From an uncultured bacterium (GTDB lineage: Bacteria; Bacillota_I; Bacilli_A; RF39; UBA660), in assembly GCA_946643435.1 (NCBI GenBank), contig CAMPCD010000009.1:1-37342 (forward strand): a stretch of 37,342 nucleotides of DNA, read 5' to 3'. Both the position numbers and the translations under genes were made by a program. Under the pieces are notes generated by a model. That model was not told the DNA's origin, searched no databases, and worked only from the letters and a program-made list of their open reading frames with translations. Shown piece after piece: positions 16,012-26,398 of this stretch (position 1 is the first letter of the stretch; every line of letters starts with the position of its first letter).

Positions 16012-18237
16012 CTATTTAAATATTTTCTTTAATATATTATCCATTTTAGATGAATCGTATTCTAATGCTTTATTATATGCATTCTTGATAAGCTTTTCTT
16101 TACCCTTTTCATCTAAATCTAATATTGTATTAATCTTATCTACTAAATCAGTAGCATCGCCTTGTTTAAATACATATGCATTACGTTTGTTTTCAGCATA
16201 TGATAAAGGCCCTTCATTATTGGATGTAATTGTTAAAGTCTTACATGCAAATGCTTCTAGTCCAACAAGTCCAAGTGATTCACTCTTTCTTTTTGTTGGG
16301 AATACAAATAATTCTAATGAATTATATAAGTAAACTAATTCTTCTCTTGATAAACCATTTAACATGATTATCTTATCTTCTAGTTTATAATCAGTTATTA
16401 ATTTATTTAATATTTTTTCTTCTGATCCACCACCAAGAATTATATACTTATAATTCTTATATTTTTTATCATTAGATAAAATATTAATTGCTTCTACAAA
16501 AGTATCATATCCTTTATCAGTTTCAACTCTTGATACATAACCTATATATTTAGTCTTTTTATCTAATTTTAAATATTCTTTAGCTTCATCTTTATCTATT
16601 TTTCTAAATAGATTAGTATCTACACCACCAGATGGATAAATAATAATCTTATTATCTGGTACATTATAGTTTTCTCTAATAACATTCATATAATGTGAAG
16701 ATGGAACAACTACTTTATATGCATTCTTTAGATACTTAGCTGATTTCTTAATATTCTTTTTATCTCTTTCAGTATCAGCAACTACATCATTACCATGAGC
16801 ATTAAAAACTAACTTAGTTCCTTTACAGAACTTACTAGCAAATACTGCACCACCAGATGAATGAGATATAAAATGAATATATACATAATCATAATTATTA
16901 AATGTTATTTTTATAATTGTAGCTAAATGTAAATAAATATATGCACATAATTTAGCAATAATATTATTATGTTTACCAATTGCTACTCTATCTACATTGT
17001 AGTATAAAGATAATCTATCTTCTACATTCTTAACAAATATACCATATGACTTATTATTCTTATTTGGATACATATTAGATACTACTAATATTTTAGTTCT
17101 ATCATCTTGATTCTTACTTAATAAGAATAATAATGCTATGAATATATAAACTAAATAATTAGTAAATATATTACCTTGGAAGAATGATGCAAAGATCATC
17201 ATCACAAATAATACTAAATGTATGCCTTTAATCTTACTACTTGATAAGATATAAATCATAAATGCTATATATAATATAACTCCTACTATACCAATTGATA
17301 AGATCATATCAACTAAATCAATACCAACTTTTTCATATTTGTTACCAAATATAAATGAATACATCTTATTTTCATTCTTTATATCTTCTACTTTAATCTT
17401 AGTGTCTTTTAATTTATATGAGAATAAATACTTATCAACATTTTCTATATCATAGAAAGTAGTATCATCACTAAAAGCATTATAAATCTTTTCTGTTCTA
17501 TAATTTTGATATTGAGGTATAACAGGTAGAATTATTATTACTGCAGAAGCTAATGTTGCTATCATTAAAGCAATATGAGGTTTTCTCTTGAAATACTTTA
17601 ATAAGCAATATACAACATATACAATTAAAGATGCATATATTGTTTTAGTACCTATAAATAATACAGTAATAATAGTACATATATAGAATAATCCTTTAAT
17701 TATATAATTCTTGCTTTTAGATGCATAATCTAATGCTATAGGCATTAATACAGCTATAATAGGACTAATTATATTTGAACCATAGAATAATCCTATAAAG
17801 CCCTTCTTATACTCAAATGCTAAATCTGCATTAAATCTAAATATATAACTAATTGTTAAAATAAATGCAAATATTAAATATACATATGATATGTATTTTT
17901 GATTAACCCATTTATTATCATAGTTAATAAAGAAGAATACAAACATAGGAAAATATAACATTATTAATATGTCTTTAATACTCTCAATACTATTAACTTG
18001 ATTAACAAAAGTTAGTCCTATAGCTAATAACATAAATATTAGATATCCTATTAACATCTTTCTTTTGATATTATTAATAAATAAATATATGTATGCCAAT
18101 AAAAAGAAAAATGATATTAAGACAAATCCTAATATAGACATATCTATATGTTCTCTTATACCATATGAAATATATAAATATAAAAATGGTATAAACATTA
18201 TAAAAACTAAAATAAAATTATCAATAAACTTTTTCAT
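16012..18237 (-). CDS. Fusion of O-antigen ligase/polymerase-like membrane protein and family 4 glycosyltransferase
   Basis: A 741-residue protein in two parts. Residues 1-378 form about eleven membrane helices with a large outside loop (about 240-310), the layout of the O-antigen ligase/Wzy polymerase family. Residues 380-741 are a GT4 glycosyltransferase: N-terminal ILVVSNMYP (383-391), FNAHGND (478-484), a GYVSR start of the second Rossmann domain (566-570) and the E-x7-E motif with Glu 653 and Glu 661. The DNA reads through without a stop or gap, so the fusion is real. One chain would join sugar addition on the inside with polymer transfer on the outside. It is directly upstream of uppP. 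The sugar and acceptor are unknown. Confidence 0.85.
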   Translation of the reverse strand: MKKFIDNFILVFIMFIPFLYLYISYGIREHIDMSILGFVLISFFFLLAYIYLFINNIKRKMLIGYLIFMLLAIGLTFVNQVNSIESIKDILIMLYFPMFVFFFINYDNKWVNQKYISYVYLIFAFILTISYIFRFNADLAFEYKKGFIGLFYGSNIISPIIAVLMPIALDYASKSKNYIIKGLFYICTIITVLFIGTKTIYASLIVYVVYCLLKYFKRKPHIALMIATLASAVIIILPVIPQYQNYRTEKIYNAFSDDTTFYDIENVDKYLFSYKLKDTKIKVEDIKNENKMYSFIFGNKYEKVGIDLVDMILSIGIVGVILYIAFMIYILSSSKIKGIHLVLFVMMIFASFFQGNIFTNYLVYIFIALLFLLSKNQDDRTKILVVSNMYPNKNNKSYGIFVKNVEDRLSLYYNVDRVAIGKHNNIIAKLCAYIYLHLATIIKITFNNYDYVYIHFISHSSGGAVFASKFCKGTKLVFNAHGNDVVADTERDKKNIKKSAKYLKNAYKVVVPSSHYMNVIRENYNVPDNKIIIYPSGGVDTNLFRKIDKDEAKEYLKLDKKTKYIGYVSRVETDKGYDTFVEAINILSNDKKYKNYKYIILGGGSEEKILNKLITDYKLEDKIIMLNGLSREELVYLYNSLELFVFPTKRKSESLGLVGLEAFACKTLTITSNNEGPLSYAENKRNAYVFKQGDATDLVDKINTILDLDEKGKEKLIKNAYNKALEYDSSKMDNILKKIFK

Positions 18238-20632: not shown

Positions 20633-20667
20633 TTTACCACCTAGTATTAGTTATAGCATATTATAAT

Positions 20668-20701
20668 AAAAAAATAAATAGTTAGGATAAACTAACTATT
20701 T
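20668..20701 (-). terminator. Rho-independent terminator closing the radical SAM cassette
   Basis: Stem AAATAGTTAG/CTAACTATTT, six-base loop, then ATTTTTTTATT on the minus strand. The stop codon of the zinc-ribbon gene lies inside. Confidence 0.85.
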
Positions 20702-21727
20702 ATATAAATACCATTCTTGATTATAATTATTTTCTGTATCACAATACTTACACTTATCACTTGTAACATCAATTGATGCTCCACAGTTATGGCAATTAAT
20801 TACATTAATTTCACCATCTTTTGTATATTTAATAGGTTTTGTACTTCTTCTAAATACTAAATGTTTAGTTTTATTTTGTACAAATAATCTATTTTTTTCA
20901 TATTTAACTTCTCTCATTAATACATCAGTTGATAAATATAAACTACCAGCATCTTCAGCTAATTTAAAGTTGCTATAATCGATAATATCATAGTCAATTA
21001 TTGAACATTTATTATCTACATAATATAGTTTATCTAATTCCGAATGAAGATTATTATAGAATGTATTATAAGCAATATTTCTTCTTTCTAAATCTTCCCA
21101 TACTTTTCTATCTGATTTATTAATAACTTCTTTCTTTATTCTAATTGGTAATAATACTATAAAAGCATCTACTAAATAGAATATAAAGAATAATACTAAT
21201 GCTATACCTAAGGCTACTCCAGATGCTTTTAATATATCAAACATATTAAAAGTTCTACTTACCTTATGAAAATAATAAAAGGATATAGCAAATGAAACAA
21301 ATAAATCAAGTAATAAAGTAAAAATAATATACTTATTATTATGTAATACTAAATCATATGTATTCTTACTTCCTAAATCTTTATTCTTATAATCTAAATT
21401 AAAATGAGAACCACAGAAAGGACATCTTTCAATACTTTCTGTTATTTTAGTTATCATTCTACAGTTAGGACAATCATAAGTTTTACCTACTTGCTCACCT
21501 TTAATAAAGGCATATTCTATTCTAGGATCAAATCCATATAATCTCTTTTTAAAGGAATTATTAACATAGTAGTCTTTTTCTACTATAATTCCTCTTGTTA
21601 AATCTTCATTTTTTGTACCATTTGAATTTTTTTCGTATTTGTTATCACCATCAGAATAAATAGTTTTAATATTTATATTGAATTCTTTTAGTCTATTCTC
21701 ATGATTCCTATCACTTATTAAACTCAT
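20696..21727 (-). CDS. Membrane protein with two zinc ribbons
   Basis: A 343-residue protein. A CPNC/CPFC zinc ribbon (Cys 86, 89, 102, 105) is followed by two membrane helices (about 133-153 and 167-193), a soluble segment, and a second ribbon CHNC/CKYC (Cys 312, 315, 326, 329) with a short WYL tail. The region 205-300 together with the terminal ribbon resembles the Tim44-like zinc-ribbon membrane proteins of Bacillota, but this is only an impression. Both ribbons would be cytoplasmic if the two helices form a hairpin. It is the last gene of the cassette, nine bases after the poly-Asn gene, with AGGTGAT as ribosome site. Its role beside the radical SAM enzyme is unknown. Confidence 0.78.
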   Translation of the reverse strand: MSLISDRNHENRLKEFNINIKTIYSDGDNKYEKNSNGTKNEDLTRGIIVEKDYYVNNSFKKRLYGFDPRIEYAFIKGEQVGKTYDCPNCRMITKITESIERCPFCGSHFNLDYKNKDLGSKNTYDLVLHNNKYIIFTLLLDLFVSFAISFYYFHKVSRTFNMFDILKASGVALGIALVLFFIFYLVDAFIVLLPIRIKKEVINKSDRKVWEDLERRNIAYNTFYNNLHSELDKLYYVDNKCSIIDYDIIDYSNFKLAEDAGSLYLSTDVLMREVKYEKNRLFVQNKTKHLVFRRSTKPIKYTKDGEINVINCHNCGASIDVTSDKCKYCDTENNYNQEWYLYK

Positions 21728-21736
21728 TTAAATCAC

Positions 21737-22141
21737 CTAGTTATTATTGTTATTGTTATTGTTGTTATTATTGTTATTATTGTTGTTATTATTATTTGTG
21801 CTTGATCCAGATGAACTAGAATATCCTCCTGATCTTGTACTTGTAGATATATAATGAGATACTACATGGTCTCCTGTCTCATCTATTCTATATCCATCGA
21901 ATGAAATACCATTATATTGAGAAACTTTACTAGATACTCCTATAGACTCTACTAAACTATTTTGAGCTTTATATAGTTTAATTGCAGCCTTAGTAGCTAA
22001 CATGAAACTATTTGGAGTAGAAACTAAGAATTCATAGATATGATTTAATTGTTCATCAGTTAAATAATAATATTTAGCCAAATTATAAACAGCCCTTTTT
22101 GTCTTTAATTCCTTAAATGTTTTAGCTTTATCACTTATCAT
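21737..22141 (-). CDS. Protein with 19-residue poly-Asn C-terminus, candidate radical SAM substrate
   Basis: A 134-residue protein with no family that I recognise. Residues 1-75 look helical and basic (leader-like). Residues 76-99 are mixed, 100-115 are rich in Ser, Gly and Tyr (RSGGYSSSSGSST), and 116-134 are nothing but Asn. The Asn codons are eleven AAT and eight AAC in irregular order, so the tract is not a pure single-triplet repeat. No signal peptide, no Cys. Its ATG overlaps the stop codon of the radical SAM gene (ATGA) with GAGGAAG before it, so it is translated together with that enzyme. A leader plus low-complexity tail beside a SPASM enzyme fits a modified-peptide precursor, but that is inference. 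Confidence 0.75.
   Translation of the reverse strand: MISDKAKTFKELKTKRAVYNLAKYYYLTDEQLNHIYEFLVSTPNSFMLATKAAIKLYKAQNSLVESIGVSSKVSQYNGISFDGYRIDETGDHVVSHYISTSTRSGGYSSSSGSSTNNNNNNNNNNNNNNNNNNN
21740..21796 (-). repeat. AAY trinucleotide tract encoding 19 Asn
   Basis: 57 bases of unbroken AAT/AAC triplets on the minus strand, ending directly at the TAG stop. The order of the two codons is mixed. It is a likely site of length variation between strains. Confidence 0.9.
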
Positions 22142-23877
22142 AATTCTTCCTCCTCTAGTATATTAAACTCAATATTTTGGAATGGTAGATTAATAGCTTG
22201 CATATGATAATATGCATTATTCTTTTGTTTAGTATAATGATAATCTCTTAATGCAGAAGTAGTAAAGAATAAATTATTAGGATTATCTTTATCTAAGTCA
22301 CATAAATATAATTTCAAGACATCAGATATATCAACTTTATAATATCCTTTTTTATCACTTTTATTCTTCTTTATAACTCCTTCATATATTTGATGAGTCA
22401 TTACATGTCTTTGTTTTGTTCTACCTTCATCACCATATGTTATTAAATCTCCTGATAATAACATCATATATAACGAGTTATTATTAGGATAATCACATAC
22501 ATATGTAAATATATCATCTTTCATATATAATTCAATAGATGATTCCTTAGATATATAAACTATATCCCTTACCTTTTTAAGTATTTGAGATTGTAATTTA
22601 TACTCTATTCCATCTATTTTAAGTATAAACAATTCATCATCATATATACCTTTTAGATTAGCATCTTTACTTATTATTTCTTCTAAAGATGGATAATCTT
22701 TTTGTTCTTTTGGATAATATTTATCCATCAAAGATGGATGAACATCATGTAGATAATAATATGTTGATTCTTCTACATTATTATCTGGTTCATATCCTCT
22801 TAATTTATATAATTCTTGTTGTAACTTACATGTATATGATTTATTACTCTTATATACATTTTTAACAAAAGGACATCCAGTCTTACATAAATAAAGATAA
22901 GGACATTTAGCACATGTAGGATTAAAACCAACTCTATTATGTGCTTTTAATATTTGTTCTTTAGCTTTATTTAATATTTCTTCTACTGTATTATCATATA
23001 TATTTCCATAGTAGAAATCTTTGTTCTTTTGACCTCTTACACAAGAATAAATATCACCATTTTTTTCAAGTAAGAAAAACTTCTCACCACAATTGGTACA
23101 ATTAGTGCAATAATCTGGTCCAAACTCATTAAACCATGCACCATTTACTCCAACATCTAAATCTGTACCATCAAATTCTTTATGCATTCTTTTAAAGAAT
23201 TTTACTTGTTCAGTTTCGTTCATATGATGAAGTATTCCATTGGAATTATAATCAAAACCTATCATGAAATTAAAATCATTCATATTTAATGTTGTATTTT
23301 TATTTAACCATTTTATATCTTCAATTATTTCATCTATTCTTTCATAATGTTCTTTAAATATAGTTGCAGATACTTTTCTTTTATTAGGTAAATCATCTAA
23401 TAATTTAATATTATTAATGATTTTATCTAATGTCTTTTTATTACCTTTAGTTACTCTATATTCATCATGTAATGATAAAGGTAAATCTAAACTACCAGAT
23501 ATAGAAACATTATATTTCTTTATAGTATCTATATGCTTATCTATTGAATATAAATTAGTCTTGATATGAGGATCACCTATTTTAAATCCATGAGATGATA
23601 TTAAAGCATTATTCTTTTTATAATAATCACTTATGAATTTTATAATACCTTCAAAATCATCATGAGATAAACAAGTTACTTCTCCACCATGTAATGATAT
23701 ATTAAATGGATATACATTACTTTTATTAAATTTATTAACTGCATATTTTAATGTATCAATTACTTTTTTATCAGACTTTAAATCTACTGTATTATCTTCA
23801 AGATAGCAATACTTGCATGCCATATTACATGCAAGTGTAGGAACATATAGAAGATGAATAAATTTATAATCTTCCAT
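22138..23877 (-). CDS. Radical SAM/SPASM domain enzyme with C-terminal extension
   Basis: A 579-residue enzyme. The radical SAM cluster is CNMACKYC (Cys 17, 21, 24), and GGEVT (64-68) takes the place of the usual GGEP SAM-binding loop. A SPASM domain follows, with Cys 257, 260, 263, 279, 322, 325, 331, 335 and 350, enough for auxiliary Fe-S clusters. Such enzymes modify peptides or proteins (thioethers, epimers, C-C bonds) or mature sulfatases. Residues 360-579 are an extra domain that I do not recognise. The ATG at 23877 is used because AGGGTGG precedes it; a GTG at 23886 lies within that site. It follows the LRR gene by ten bases and overlaps the poly-Asn gene by four. No sulfatase gene is in view. 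Confidence 0.9.
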   Translation of the reverse strand: MEDYKFIHLLYVPTLACNMACKYCYLEDNTVDLKSDKKVIDTLKYAVNKFNKSNVYPFNISLHGGEVTCLSHDDFEGIIKFISDYYKKNNALISSHGFKIGDPHIKTNLYSIDKHIDTIKKYNVSISGSLDLPLSLHDEYRVTKGNKKTLDKIINNIKLLDDLPNKRKVSATIFKEHYERIDEIIEDIKWLNKNTTLNMNDFNFMIGFDYNSNGILHHMNETEQVKFFKRMHKEFDGTDLDVGVNGAWFNEFGPDYCTNCTNCGEKFFLLEKNGDIYSCVRGQKNKDFYYGNIYDNTVEEILNKAKEQILKAHNRVGFNPTCAKCPYLYLCKTGCPFVKNVYKSNKSYTCKLQQELYKLRGYEPDNNVEESTYYYLHDVHPSLMDKYYPKEQKDYPSLEEIISKDANLKGIYDDELFILKIDGIEYKLQSQILKKVRDIVYISKESSIELYMKDDIFTYVCDYPNNNSLYMMLLSGDLITYGDEGRTKQRHVMTHQIYEGVIKKNKSDKKGYYKVDISDVLKLYLCDLDKDNPNNLFFTTSALRDYHYTKQKNNAYYHMQAINLPFQNIEFNILEEEEL

Positions 23878-23887
23878 TAAAACCACC

Positions 23888-25480
23888 CTATCTATATTTT
23901 ACTTTTGTTGGACTATCCTTAAATACTTTTTCTCCTAAATTAGTTCCTTCAGGAATTGTTATTGTTGTTAACAATTTACATTCCCTAAAAGCTGAATCTT
24001 CAATACTTGTAACAGTTGAAGGAATATTTACATTAGTTAATTTAGAACAATTTCTAAATGCTCTTTCACCTATTCTTGTTACACCTTCAGGTATATCTAT
24101 TGATGTTATAGCTGTATTTCTAAATGTGCTAGCTTTTATTTCAGTAATATTTTTGGATAATTTTACTTTTTCTAAATTACGACAATTTTCGAATACATGA
24201 GCACTTATTTTAGTTACTGAATCAGGTATACTAATACTTTGTATCAATGTTCCTTCAAATGCTGATTCAGATATTTCTTCTAATCCTTCATTTAAATTAA
24301 TATTCATTAAAGTAGAATATTCAAATGCACTTGGTCCAATTTTCTTTATTGTTGTAGGAAGAGTAATATTTGTTATTGCTGTATTAGCAAATGCTTTTTC
24401 ATGTATTTGAGTAACGCCTTCTTCTAGATTCATATATTTAATCCTAGTATTATAGAAAGCATATCCACCTACTTCTTTTTTAATAGATGTTTCACCTATA
24501 TTTTCAAGACTAGTACATCCATCAAATGCATGACCACCTATTGTATCTAATTCCTTAGGTAATTCAACCATAACTAAGGATGTATCTCCTTGGAATGTAG
24601 ATCCATGTATTTCTTTTACCTTTTCAGGTATAGTAATATAAACTAAACTTGTACAATTTTGGAAAGCAGATCCACCTAATTCAGTTAAATTTTCAGGTAA
24701 TTCTATAGTTTCAAGATTAACATCATTTTGGAAAGCTTTACCTCTAATAGATGTAATAGTATTTGGTAATTTAACAGATTTTATTTGAGGTAAATTTCTA
24801 AATACATTACCTCTTATTTCTACAACTGGTTCACCTTTATATTCTGATGGCACTTCTATATTTTCAGGTAAATTAGATCCAACATAATATCTTAAGGCAT
24901 AACCACCATTTGTTTTTTCATATATAAATGTTTCATGATTAAAGGCTATATATGGAATAAAAAATAAACCAATTATTATAAGTATTCTACCTAATATAAA
25001 AGGTATTCTATTTACTTTTCTTTGAATCATAGAGTTAATAATATATTCCATGTTTTCATCTTCTCTTGCTTGGAATTGTTTATATATACTCTTTTTTAAA
25101 TTATATCTAGTTACCATGATAATAGCTGGAATAATAGTTGCAAACATTAATAATCCTGCAATAACATCATTTATTCTAAACATAAGCATCATATTAGCAA
25201 TAAAGAATATAACACCAACTATTAAGCCTAGTATGCTTTTCTTTATTTCTACTTCCATTGTAGAATCAAACATACCATAACCTTGTTGTTTTAATTCTTC
25301 AGTAATAACTTCATTAGCTAATTTGTTAATACTTTGATTATACATTTCAGGAGTATTTGCAAAACCTTCTTTTTCAGTAATTATTACATTTCCAAAAGGA
25401 TTATTAATTTCATTTCCTTTTTTGATAATTGTTCTTACAATTAAAAAGAATATTACTGCAGTAAATAGAAAACCAATCAT
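23888..25480 (-). CDS. Membrane-anchored BspA-type leucine-rich repeat protein
   Basis: A 530-residue protein. There is one N-terminal helix (about 2-16), two helices near 70-115 and another near 160-185. About 14 LRR_5/BspA-type repeats of roughly 23 residues then cover 195-525, each with an A-F or similar pair (for example GSAFQNCTSLVYITIP). The repeats should lie outside the membrane; in this family they bind host or bacterial surface proteins. It opens a four-gene operon with the radical SAM enzyme, poly-Asn protein and zinc-ribbon protein. The ribosome site is GGTGAT before the ATG at 25480. An extended -10 (TGATAAAAT) lies about 20 bases upstream. Whether it is a target, receptor or anchor for the cassette is unknown. 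Confidence 0.85.
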   Translation of the reverse strand: MIGFLFTAVIFFLIVRTIIKKGNEINNPFGNVIITEKEGFANTPEMYNQSINKLANEVITEELKQQGYGMFDSTMEVEIKKSILGLIVGVIFFIANMMLMFRINDVIAGLLMFATIIPAIIMVTRYNLKKSIYKQFQAREDENMEYIINSMIQRKVNRIPFILGRILIIIGLFFIPYIAFNHETFIYEKTNGGYALRYYVGSNLPENIEVPSEYKGEPVVEIRGNVFRNLPQIKSVKLPNTITSIRGKAFQNDVNLETIELPENLTELGGSAFQNCTSLVYITIPEKVKEIHGSTFQGDTSLVMVELPKELDTIGGHAFDGCTSLENIGETSIKKEVGGYAFYNTRIKYMNLEEGVTQIHEKAFANTAITNITLPTTIKKIGPSAFEYSTLMNINLNEGLEEISESAFEGTLIQSISIPDSVTKISAHVFENCRNLEKVKLSKNITEIKASTFRNTAITSIDIPEGVTRIGERAFRNCSKLTNVNIPSTVTSIEDSAFRECKLLTTITIPEGTNLGEKVFKDSPTKVKYR

Positions 25481-25533
25481 ATTATCACCATATTAATTTT
25501 ATCATAAATAGGTATAATAAAAAATAATATTCA

Positions 25534-25564
25534 ATAAAAAAAGAACCTATCTAAATAGATTCTT
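25534..25564 (-). terminator. Rho-independent terminator of the family 2 glycosyltransferase gene
   Basis: Stem AAGAA-CTAT/ATAG-TTCTT with one mismatch, then TTTTTTATTG on the minus strand. The stop codon is inside. It isolates the LRR-radical SAM cassette from upstream transcription. Confidence 0.75.
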
Positions 25565-26398
25565 TATAAAAGCAATTGTTAATGATAATCCATATAATAC
25601 TTTTAGTATAAACATACTAAAGATATTTCTTTTATTATATGTTTTTTCATAATACATTAATGATTTAATTAAAATCTTATACTTATTTAATTTCTTAATA
25701 GATTTATCAACACTTACTGATAAATTATGTATTACTTGTACATTATTTAATATATATGTATCATATCCTTTATCTTTTAATATATGTCCTAAGATATTTT
25801 CTTCATAATATAAGAATGTACCTTCATCAAAATAATTAATTTCTTTTAATACATCTGCTCTAATCATAAAGAAACAACCTGATACAACATCTACTTTAGA
25901 TAATTTATCTTTATAATGAGATTCATCATATAATCCATAGTTTTTATGAAATCTTTGTTTAGTATTACATATAGTAATTACTTCTCCATAGTAAGTTGGT
26001 AACATCCACCCTCTTTTAATGGTATCAAGTTCAGATATAGTTGGAGCTAATACTTTAATGCTAGCATGCTTATCCATCTCTTTCTTTAAAGCTGTTATAA
26101 CTTCACTTTCAACAATAATATCAGGATTAGATATTATTACATAATCGACTTTATGTTTTTTTAATAAATGTTTAATACCTACATTGTTACCTGCAGAATA
26201 CCCATTATTAGATTTAGATTTAATTACATCTATTTTATTACTATTATATTCTTTTAATAGTTCATAAGAATTATCTGTAGAATGATTATCTACTACAACA
26301 ATACTATCAATAGATCTATATGATTTAATTGTATCTAACATTATTCTAGTTGTCTTATAATCATTATAGTTAAGTACAACCATACCTACCTTACTCAT
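25547..26398 (-). CDS. Family 2 glycosyltransferase, rhamnosyltransferase-like
   Basis: A 283-residue cytoplasmic-face enzyme transferring sugar from a nucleotide donor. The GT-A fold begins VGMVVLNYND; DNHSTDNS (37-44) binds the nucleotide, NNGYSAGNN (64-72) is typical of the WbbL/rhamnosyltransferase branch, and NPD (91-93) replaces the DxD metal motif. SGCFFMIR and a YYEE stretch mark the acceptor side. The last 20 residues are hydrophobic and could lie on the membrane. It is after pgsA but separated from it by a terminator. It probably builds a surface polysaccharide; the donor sugar is not certain. Confidence 0.88.
   Translation of the reverse strand: MSKVGMVVLNYNDYKTTRIMLDTIKSYRSIDSIVVVDNHSTDNSYELLKEYNSNKIDVIKSKSNNGYSAGNNVGIKHLLKKHKVDYVIISNPDIIVESEVITALKKEMDKHASIKVLAPTISELDTIKRGWMLPTYYGEVITICNTKQRFHKNYGLYDESHYKDKLSKVDVVSGCFFMIRADVLKEINYFDEGTFLYYEENILGHILKDKGYDTYILNNVQVIHNLSVSVDKSIKKLNKYKILIKSLMYYEKTYNKRNIFSMFILKVLYGLSLTIAFIKNLFR

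Follow-up and report, generated by a model that had tools for sequence, protein, structure and literature searches.

Asparagine-tailed proteins as putative substrates of a radical SAM/SPASM enzyme subfamily in gut Bacilli and Campylobacter phages

Radical S-adenosylmethionine (SAM) enzymes with a SPASM domain make unusual bonds, and new substrate classes have tended to reveal new chemistry. It is known that such an enzyme can be encoded adjacent to its substrate, and an arrangement of this kind was suspected in a 37,342-nucleotide stretch of DNA (contig CAMPCD010000009.1; hereafter the window, meaning the whole stretch that was analysed), in which a radical SAM/SPASM enzyme is followed by a small protein with a terminal run of asparagine. 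What is new is the type of the putative substrate tail, together with a connection to the receptor-binding proteins of phages that was not expected. Members of this enzyme subfamily from different phyla are accompanied by similar tails on proteins that are unrelated to each other, and the simplest reading is, therefore, that the enzyme acts on the tail. From these comparisons of sequences, we consider it likely that the tail-bearing protein is the substrate, and probable that the enzyme belongs to a SPASM subfamily not described so far, whose members modify a disordered Ser/Gly-Asn tail at the very C-terminus of a partner protein encoded next to the enzyme.

The cassette and its recurrence in Bacilli and Clostridia

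The window makes up the entire contig G000:C9 of a metagenome-assembled genome of 1.13 Mb, which is 80% complete, and its relatives with names are uncultured gut and rumen 'Bacilli' and 'Clostridia'. The cassette consists of four minus-strand genes, encoding a leucine-rich repeat (LRR) protein, the radical SAM/SPASM enzyme, the Asn-tailed protein and a zinc-ribbon membrane protein.

23888..25480, minus strand: first gene of the cassette, for a BspA-type (LRR_5) LRR protein with membrane segments at its N-terminus (LRR_5, E=6e-91)
22138..23886, minus strand: radical SAM/SPASM enzyme of 582 aa, whose C-terminal domain at about residues 370-582 is conserved (Radical_SAM 41 bits, SPASM 26.8 bits)
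21737..22141, minus strand: putative substrate, 134 aa, with a folded domain (aa 9-96), a Ser/Gly/Tyr linker and C-terminal Asn19 (next to the enzyme at all 29 distinct loci; AlphaFold2 model)
21740..21796, minus strand: tract coding the terminal Asn19 (mixed AAT/AAC), followed by TAG (sequence)
20696..21727, minus strand: membrane protein carrying two zinc ribbons, with two membrane segments in its central part (zinc-ribbon matches in each of the 11 orthologues, all weak)
20671..20703, minus strand: A+T-rich terminator-like hairpin and U-run 3' of the cassette (ViennaRNA fold of 20655-20715, -13.9 kcal/mol)
25537..25565, minus strand: terminator-like hairpin and U-run closing the upstream GT2 glycosyltransferase gene and setting the cassette apart (ViennaRNA fold of 25520-25575, -9.2 kcal/mol)

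An earlier note on this DNA had described four genes with gaps of 10, -4 and 9 bases, and this layout was confirmed by the open reading frames (ORFs). The enzyme ORF starts with GTG, and an in-frame ATG at 23877 is the likely start, which the 10-base gap after the LRR gene requires. The gene for the small protein overlaps the enzyme gene by 4 bases (ATGA), and 9 bases separate it from the zinc-ribbon gene. Terminators, claimed for both sides, were found as the A+T-rich hairpins with U-runs given above; a G+C-based scan, which misses such hairpins seen by ViennaRNA, detected no terminator at the cassette.

Orthologues of the enzyme with 61-85% identity were found at at least 29 loci of gut Bacilli and Clostridia. 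Counting the window, the enzyme is present in 8 of 147 genomes of relatives, in 20 of 385 genomes of the order and at 15 loci of a species-level genome collection. Samples of the class and the phylum, which contain many genomes of the same family, gave no enzyme match at E<=1e-40 besides the window's own. A small protein with linker and Asn tail follows the enzyme at all 29 distinct loci that reach past the enzyme gene, and these loci span two named classes and 22-38% G+C. The profile of the small protein detected 8 of the 147 genomes, the very ones that hold the enzyme; a further match, in G008 (E=5e-4), was false and was rejected as an unrelated secreted protein. Listing the neighbours of enzyme homologues, which the earlier note had recommended as a check, returned the Asn-tailed protein at all of these Bacilli and Clostridia loci, and the assignment of this protein as the substrate is strongly supported by the comparative data, namely the 29 loci, the shared set of genomes and the phage fibre tails described below. 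In the comparison of the 15 loci, the LRR protein, the enzyme, the small protein and mostly the zinc-ribbon protein were shared, and the other flanking genes mostly differed; the incompleteness of metagenome-assembled genomes limits the weight of single gene absences. No leader peptidase or exporter was conserved in the cassette at these loci. Distant radical SAM matches with about 25% identity in relatives (L009-L016) were rejected, as they belong to other families and have neighbours without an Asn tail; one of them, L014, is a true sulfatase maturase adjoining a sulfatase.

The small protein of the window ends in SSTN19, in agreement with the homopolymeric tail described before, and the Asn tract is made of mixed AAT/AAC codons and is not a pure microsatellite. 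Across the loci, a variable N-terminal folded domain of ~95 residues is followed by a Ser/Gly-rich linker, in which Tyr, Trp or Phe are often found, and by a C-terminal stretch of 4-20 Asn without interruption, after which an Arg or His is often the last residue. Several contigs stop within the Asn tract, and some of these run lengths are minimum values. The window protein has no Cys, and the linker at L081 has neither an aromatic residue nor Cys. The small proteins at L031:7736-8104 and L032:7736-8086 differ from the remaining Bacilli orthologues by linker Cys directly ahead of the Asn run (SGCGSSCSGCSTNNN), in the pattern CGxxCxGC. AlphaFold2 predicted a compact domain at residues 9-96 (two helices and five strands, with the per-residue confidence score pLDDT mostly above 90) and a disordered tail. 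From this prediction, the 'leader-like' N-terminus proposed in the earlier note is doubtful. The protein had no family match, apart from a low-complexity Pfam match below the cut-off, and the fold search gave no significant hit (best E 0.6), which does not in itself show a new fold. The folded domain shares 27-53% identity with that of the window protein across the loci, as compared with 61-85% for the enzyme.

The share of AAC among the Asn codons of the tails was 36.6%, as compared with 13.7% when the enzyme genes at these loci were counted (p=7e-21), and the tail is maintained in hosts with 36-38% G+C (L031 and L032). Because of this higher share of AAC and this persistence, we read the tail as a kept protein feature, and not as a drifting nucleotide repeat. 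Only 10 of the 171 unique ORFs at the Bacilli loci end in NNNN, and all of them are the small proteins of the cassette. An Asn-run search in 60 relatives showed that most other runs are internal linkers (LysM, prepilin-like and penicillin-binding proteins) or noncoding, and no second cassette-like Asn tail was present among the runs read. Long Asn-run linkers, for example between LysM domains, were observed in G014, G025, G019, G034 and G035, often at contig ends, where assembly breaks.

It could be argued that an A+T-rich lineage acquired the tail by neutral expansion of low-complexity sequence and kept it near the enzyme by chance, considering that Asn-run linkers are frequent in the family and that mixed AAT/AAC codons occur in those runs too. 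However, the tail is universal, strictly C-terminal and uninterrupted at the 29 loci over their two classes and their range of G+C, and the association of enzyme and Asn tail has a parallel in Campylobacter phages. We regard neutral expansion as very improbable.

The enzyme and its C-terminal domain

The CxxxCxxC motif (C20, C24 and C27) and the nine additional SPASM-type Cys pointed out in the earlier note (residues 260, 263, 266, 282, 325, 328, 334, 338 and 353) were confirmed, and all twelve are invariant in 18 aligned orthologues; in a remote phage member, L135, C263 is the sole Cys missing. In the Pfam search, the window enzyme scored 41.0 bits for Radical_SAM PF04055 (cut-off 29.5) and 26.8 bits for SPASM PF13186 (cut-off 21.5), and the generic SPASM-domain model of NCBIfam, TIGR04085, gave 47 against a cut-off of 27. 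The auxiliary-cluster pattern of SPASM domains (CX..GX4C, CX2CX5CX3C, C) is present with invariant C266, G277, C282, C325, C328, C334, C338 and C353. Residues 8-366 match the fold of anSME, ChlB, CteB and SuiB with Z 22-27, and the match to EpeE is weaker and shorter (Z about 15).

The closest solved fold is that of the anaerobic sulfatase maturase anSME (Z 26.6), and the anSME family model TIGR03942 is among the best of the weak NCBIfam matches, as would be expected if the enzyme were an ordinary maturase that converts Ser or Cys to formylglycine, with incidental neighbours. The score for TIGR03942 was, however, 88.3 bits, far below the cut-off of 349.45. In addition, the catalytic Asp of anSME (YPCDFY), which follows the GX4C cysteine in 4k36 and two related maturases, aligns with residue 283, an invariant Val in the 18 orthologues (YSCVRG), and formylglycine formation is therefore unlikely. 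In 12 carriers, most ORFs with a sulfatase domain have 640-720 aa, a length like that of LtaS-type proteins, with some matches partial and the type judged by size alone. An assignment to sulfatase maturation, which the earlier note had named as a result that would speak against its proposal, was thus not obtained, and we consider this explanation scarcely credible. More generally, none of the named maturase equivalogs of NCBIfam passed for the enzyme among the best 25 of 34 families at E<=1; all were far below their cut-offs, and the DynA model was the best (94.5 of 450).

The last ~210 residues of the enzyme are strongly conserved, for example in YGDExRxK and FFTTxxLRxYHYxKxxxNAxYHxxxINLPF, and the domain is also conserved in the phage homologues. 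No sequence match to this domain was detected in Pfam or PDB. The radical SAM core prevailed in the Foldseek/VIA searches, which say nothing on the fold of the domain, and faint BFVD alignments to minor tail proteins of Microbacterium phages (E about 0.01) are a lead only. We infer that it is a candidate substrate-docking domain. The profile phrog_1802, annotated as 'radical SAM domain-containing protein', matched the window enzyme with 154.9 bits over residues 15-575 and the phage homologue with 475 bits; it also matches many generic SPASM enzymes over the core, and its search across the phylum returned only such enzymes besides the window enzyme. Among models of defence systems, viperin alone gave a match, a weak one that fell on the radical SAM core.

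Phage tail fibres and the partner proteins

Protein searches of plasmids and phages detected a homologue of the enzyme with 33.7% identity over 96% of its length, including the C-terminal domain, in a plasmid-borne Mu-like prophage of Campylobacter coli and in Campylobacter phage CAM-P21. The full-length phage homologues have 33-35% identity, and all of the iron-sulfur (Fe-S) ligands are common to the Bacilli and the Campylobacter phage enzymes. A scan of viral contigs with the Bacilli alignment found no enzyme homologue. The phage gene is part of the tail gene region and is located two genes downstream of the tail fibre, the C-terminus of which is APSGSTNNNNY. On further viral contigs, with enzymes 63-100% identical, the fibre ends in STNNNNY, ATNNNNY, SSNNNNY, STGNNF, SMGNNS, SSGNNF or SCNNNNN (the last at L133), and type-B fibres retain GNN with little linker. 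At least two of the fibre C-terminal regions, the L093 type and the L102/L104 type, are mutually unalignable by BLAST.

No homologue of the LRR protein or the small protein was found near the enzyme at the phage loci. The occurrence of enzyme homologues without the small protein, a second result that the earlier note had set against its own proposal, is literally true of the phages, but the Asn tail there sits on the tail fibre. Since the tail is carried by another protein, the case for the tail as the target is strengthened.

The association was compared in prophages with and without the enzyme. Using the N-terminal half of the fibre, 28 prophages were fetched, and the 26 cases with a complete fibre were compared. 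An Asn ending ((S/T/G)NN or NNNN) was present in 7 of 7 fibres of enzyme-bearing prophages and in 0 of 19 fibres of enzyme-less prophages with near-identical N-termini; the Fisher test gave p=1.5e-6 with relatedness uncorrected and, because the cases are related, this value is only a guide and not a strict probability. The 19 enzyme-less prophages have other knobs, mostly with a DUF4376 chaperone. Among 223 unique ORFs at the phage loci, NN within the last six residues occurred in 9, and 7 of these are the enzyme-linked fibres.

The Campylobacter Mu-like prophages (fibre region of L105-L132; L093:6307-9743) exchange the 3' end of the fibre gene together with the downstream genes. The alternatives of this module are a knob with a DUF4376 chaperone, or an Asn-ended knob with a 211-aa protein (phrog_10241) and the radical SAM enzyme. 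At L117:7452-9193, the radical SAM gene of the prophage is split into two frames, and the fibre still ends in SMGNNF. A 97-kb viral metagenome contig (L135:4752-7809) encodes a remote member of the family (32%) and, in its vicinity, a tail protein with a Cys-rich C-terminus (STCALCASCSGCPCSYSFPAC...).

The fibres in question belong to the Campylobacter H-fibre family of receptor-binding proteins, in which the C-terminal knob binds the porin MOMP (PMC11464564) and depends, in one case, on a downstream DUF4376 chaperone (PMC7882524). No radical SAM protein is mentioned in these two papers, both of which treat only the DUF4376 version of the H-fibre.

The tails of the two groups also bear on the position that is modified. 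The small protein may be the substrate with its modified residues in the Ser/Gly/aromatic (or Cys) linker, the Asn run serving only as a flexible handle or a recognition element. Such a role of the linker would agree with the conservation of its kind, with the Cys pattern at L031 and L032, with the fibre end SCNNNNN and with the Cys-rich neighbour at L135. On the other hand, the linker does not always contain aromatic residues or Cys, as L081 shows, it varies in length, and NN or longer is present in every other tail; furthermore, GNN is kept by the type-B phage fibres despite their little linker. Modification of the linker alone seems, therefore, unlikely to us.

The two other proteins of the cassette were compared across the Bacilli loci. 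The LRR assignment of the earlier note stands, with a correction to its 'surface protein': the several N-terminal membrane segments suggest that the protein is membrane-anchored and not simply secreted, as judged from predicted topology. By positive-inside reasoning, the LRR domain probably faces the exterior of the cell and the zinc ribbons its interior. The LRR gene is immediately upstream of the enzyme at 15 of 15 compared loci, while other flanks differ. Several LRR orthologues carry an extra N-terminal zinc ribbon, and the proteins differ strongly in length and architecture between loci. The zinc-ribbon protein has the ribbons C86/C89/C102/C105 and CxNCGA...CxYC, and was found in the same 8 of 108 genomes of relatives as the enzyme. 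Four enzyme-carrying genomes have no zinc-ribbon gene, and we therefore regard its product as an accessory part.

The constant position of the LRR gene would also be expected if the enzyme made a soluble cofactor or acted on the LRR protein, with the Asn-tailed protein as a scaffold, chaperone or carrier, and the folded domain of the small protein could serve as an adaptor. However, the phages retain the enzyme and the Asn tail with no LRR or small-protein homologue nearby, and the strong variation of the LRR protein speaks against it as the target. This explanation is improbable in our judgement.

Elsewhere in the window, a 741-aa protein (16012-18237, minus strand) was observed, in which an O-antigen-ligase-like membrane domain is fused to a group 1 glycosyltransferase, an unusual combination.

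Proposed reaction and comparison with known systems

Several observations weigh against modification of the Asn tails. Asn-run linkers are common in other extracellular proteins of this A+T-rich family, even where the genome has no enzyme, and one penicillin-binding protein (G035) has an Asn-rich C-terminus. In G410, the contig copy L078 reads TAA ahead of the Asn codons and the copy L083 reads on, which reflects a mixture of strains or else a tail that has been disrupted. In the phages, the association comes from a single recombining module, and its 26 cases are not independent. Finally, L135, the most remote phage member, is near a fibre-like protein that ends in CxxCxxCxxCPC without an Asn run; its specificity may therefore have shifted, or the linker may be the target, and this tail protein suggests a variant substrate.

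We nevertheless favour the Asn-tailed protein as the substrate. Cys-dependent thioethers and fixed-distance aromatic cross-links are not common denominators of the tails, and consecutive Asn is nearly so. As it is the only feature common to nearly all of the tails, Asn is the likeliest site, and an oxidative modification there is the chemistry that we put forward as the leading candidate, tentatively. In the proposed mechanism, the folded part and the tail of the partner would dock on the enzyme, perhaps via the C-terminal domain. SAM would be cleaved to give a 5'-deoxyadenosyl radical, which would abstract a hydrogen from a tail residue, and the two auxiliary Fe-S clusters would accept an electron, to yield a residue that is oxidised, either dehydrogenated or cross-linked. 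Along the Asn run of the Bacilli proteins, the reaction would be repeated, and the LRR and zinc-ribbon partners in the membrane might then display the modified tail or take part in sensing it. In phages, the modified tail would be located at the receptor-binding tip of the fibre.

The broadest form of this proposal is held with considerable reserve: a radical SAM subfamily with a docking domain might place a chemically new modification repeatedly on poly-Asn tails, and the same chemistry might arm the receptor-binding tips of phage fibres. A virion adhesin would then be modified by a radical SAM enzyme for the first time, and a homopolymeric Asn substrate would likewise be the first of its kind. 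In the open-access literature, no paper was found that joins radical SAM, SPASM and poly-asparagine, or that links radical SAM with a phage tail fibre and post-translational modification. The putative substrate motif is very simple (Ser/Gly followed by Asn, at the C-terminus) and is shared by proteins that are not related, from two bacterial phyla and from phages, and the enzyme is therefore a candidate tool for modifying a short C-terminal tag. It also becomes directly testable whether phages modify their receptor-binding tips by such chemistry, and recombinant fibres of the enzyme-linked type may be inactive when produced without the enzyme.

Among the described systems, anSME (PDB 4k36/4k37) shares with the window enzyme the radical SAM barrel and the SPASM domain with two auxiliary clusters, within the fold match at residues 8-366. 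The window enzyme differs from it by the Val in place of the catalytic Asp, the extra C-terminal domain of ~200 residues and a dedicated partner that is an Asn-tailed protein and not a sulfatase. The SPASM maturases of ribosomally synthesized and post-translationally modified peptides (GrrM/OscB, Gly-rich; TIGR04115, CXXX-repeat; TIGR04463, Cys-rich; HxsB, His-Xaa-Ser; DynA; ChlB) are similar in having a small neighbour protein with a low-complexity C-terminal part as the likely substrate. Unlike in these systems, the run of the putative substrate is pure Asn, its N-terminal part is a folded domain, and no peptidase or exporter is conserved. The Cys donors in the core of sactipeptides and ranthipeptides have counterparts among the Bacilli small proteins only in the linker Cys of L031 and L032, and the aromatic residue two positions before the acceptor in triceptides has no regular counterpart, as some tails (L081 and L031) have no aromatics and there is no fixed spacing to Asn. 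The radical SAM peptide epimerases (EpeE/YydG, and PoyD of polytheonamide) resemble the proposed reaction in their radical chemistry on backbone positions, which in the proteusin epimerases include those of Asn. For the phages, the closest system is the CJIE1-type Campylobacter H-fibre with the DUF4376 chaperone, which has the same fibre N-terminus and the same locus as the enzyme-bearing variant; in the latter, the knob is replaced by one ending in NN/NNNN, and the DUF4376 gene by the genes for the 211-aa phrog_10241 protein and the radical SAM enzyme.

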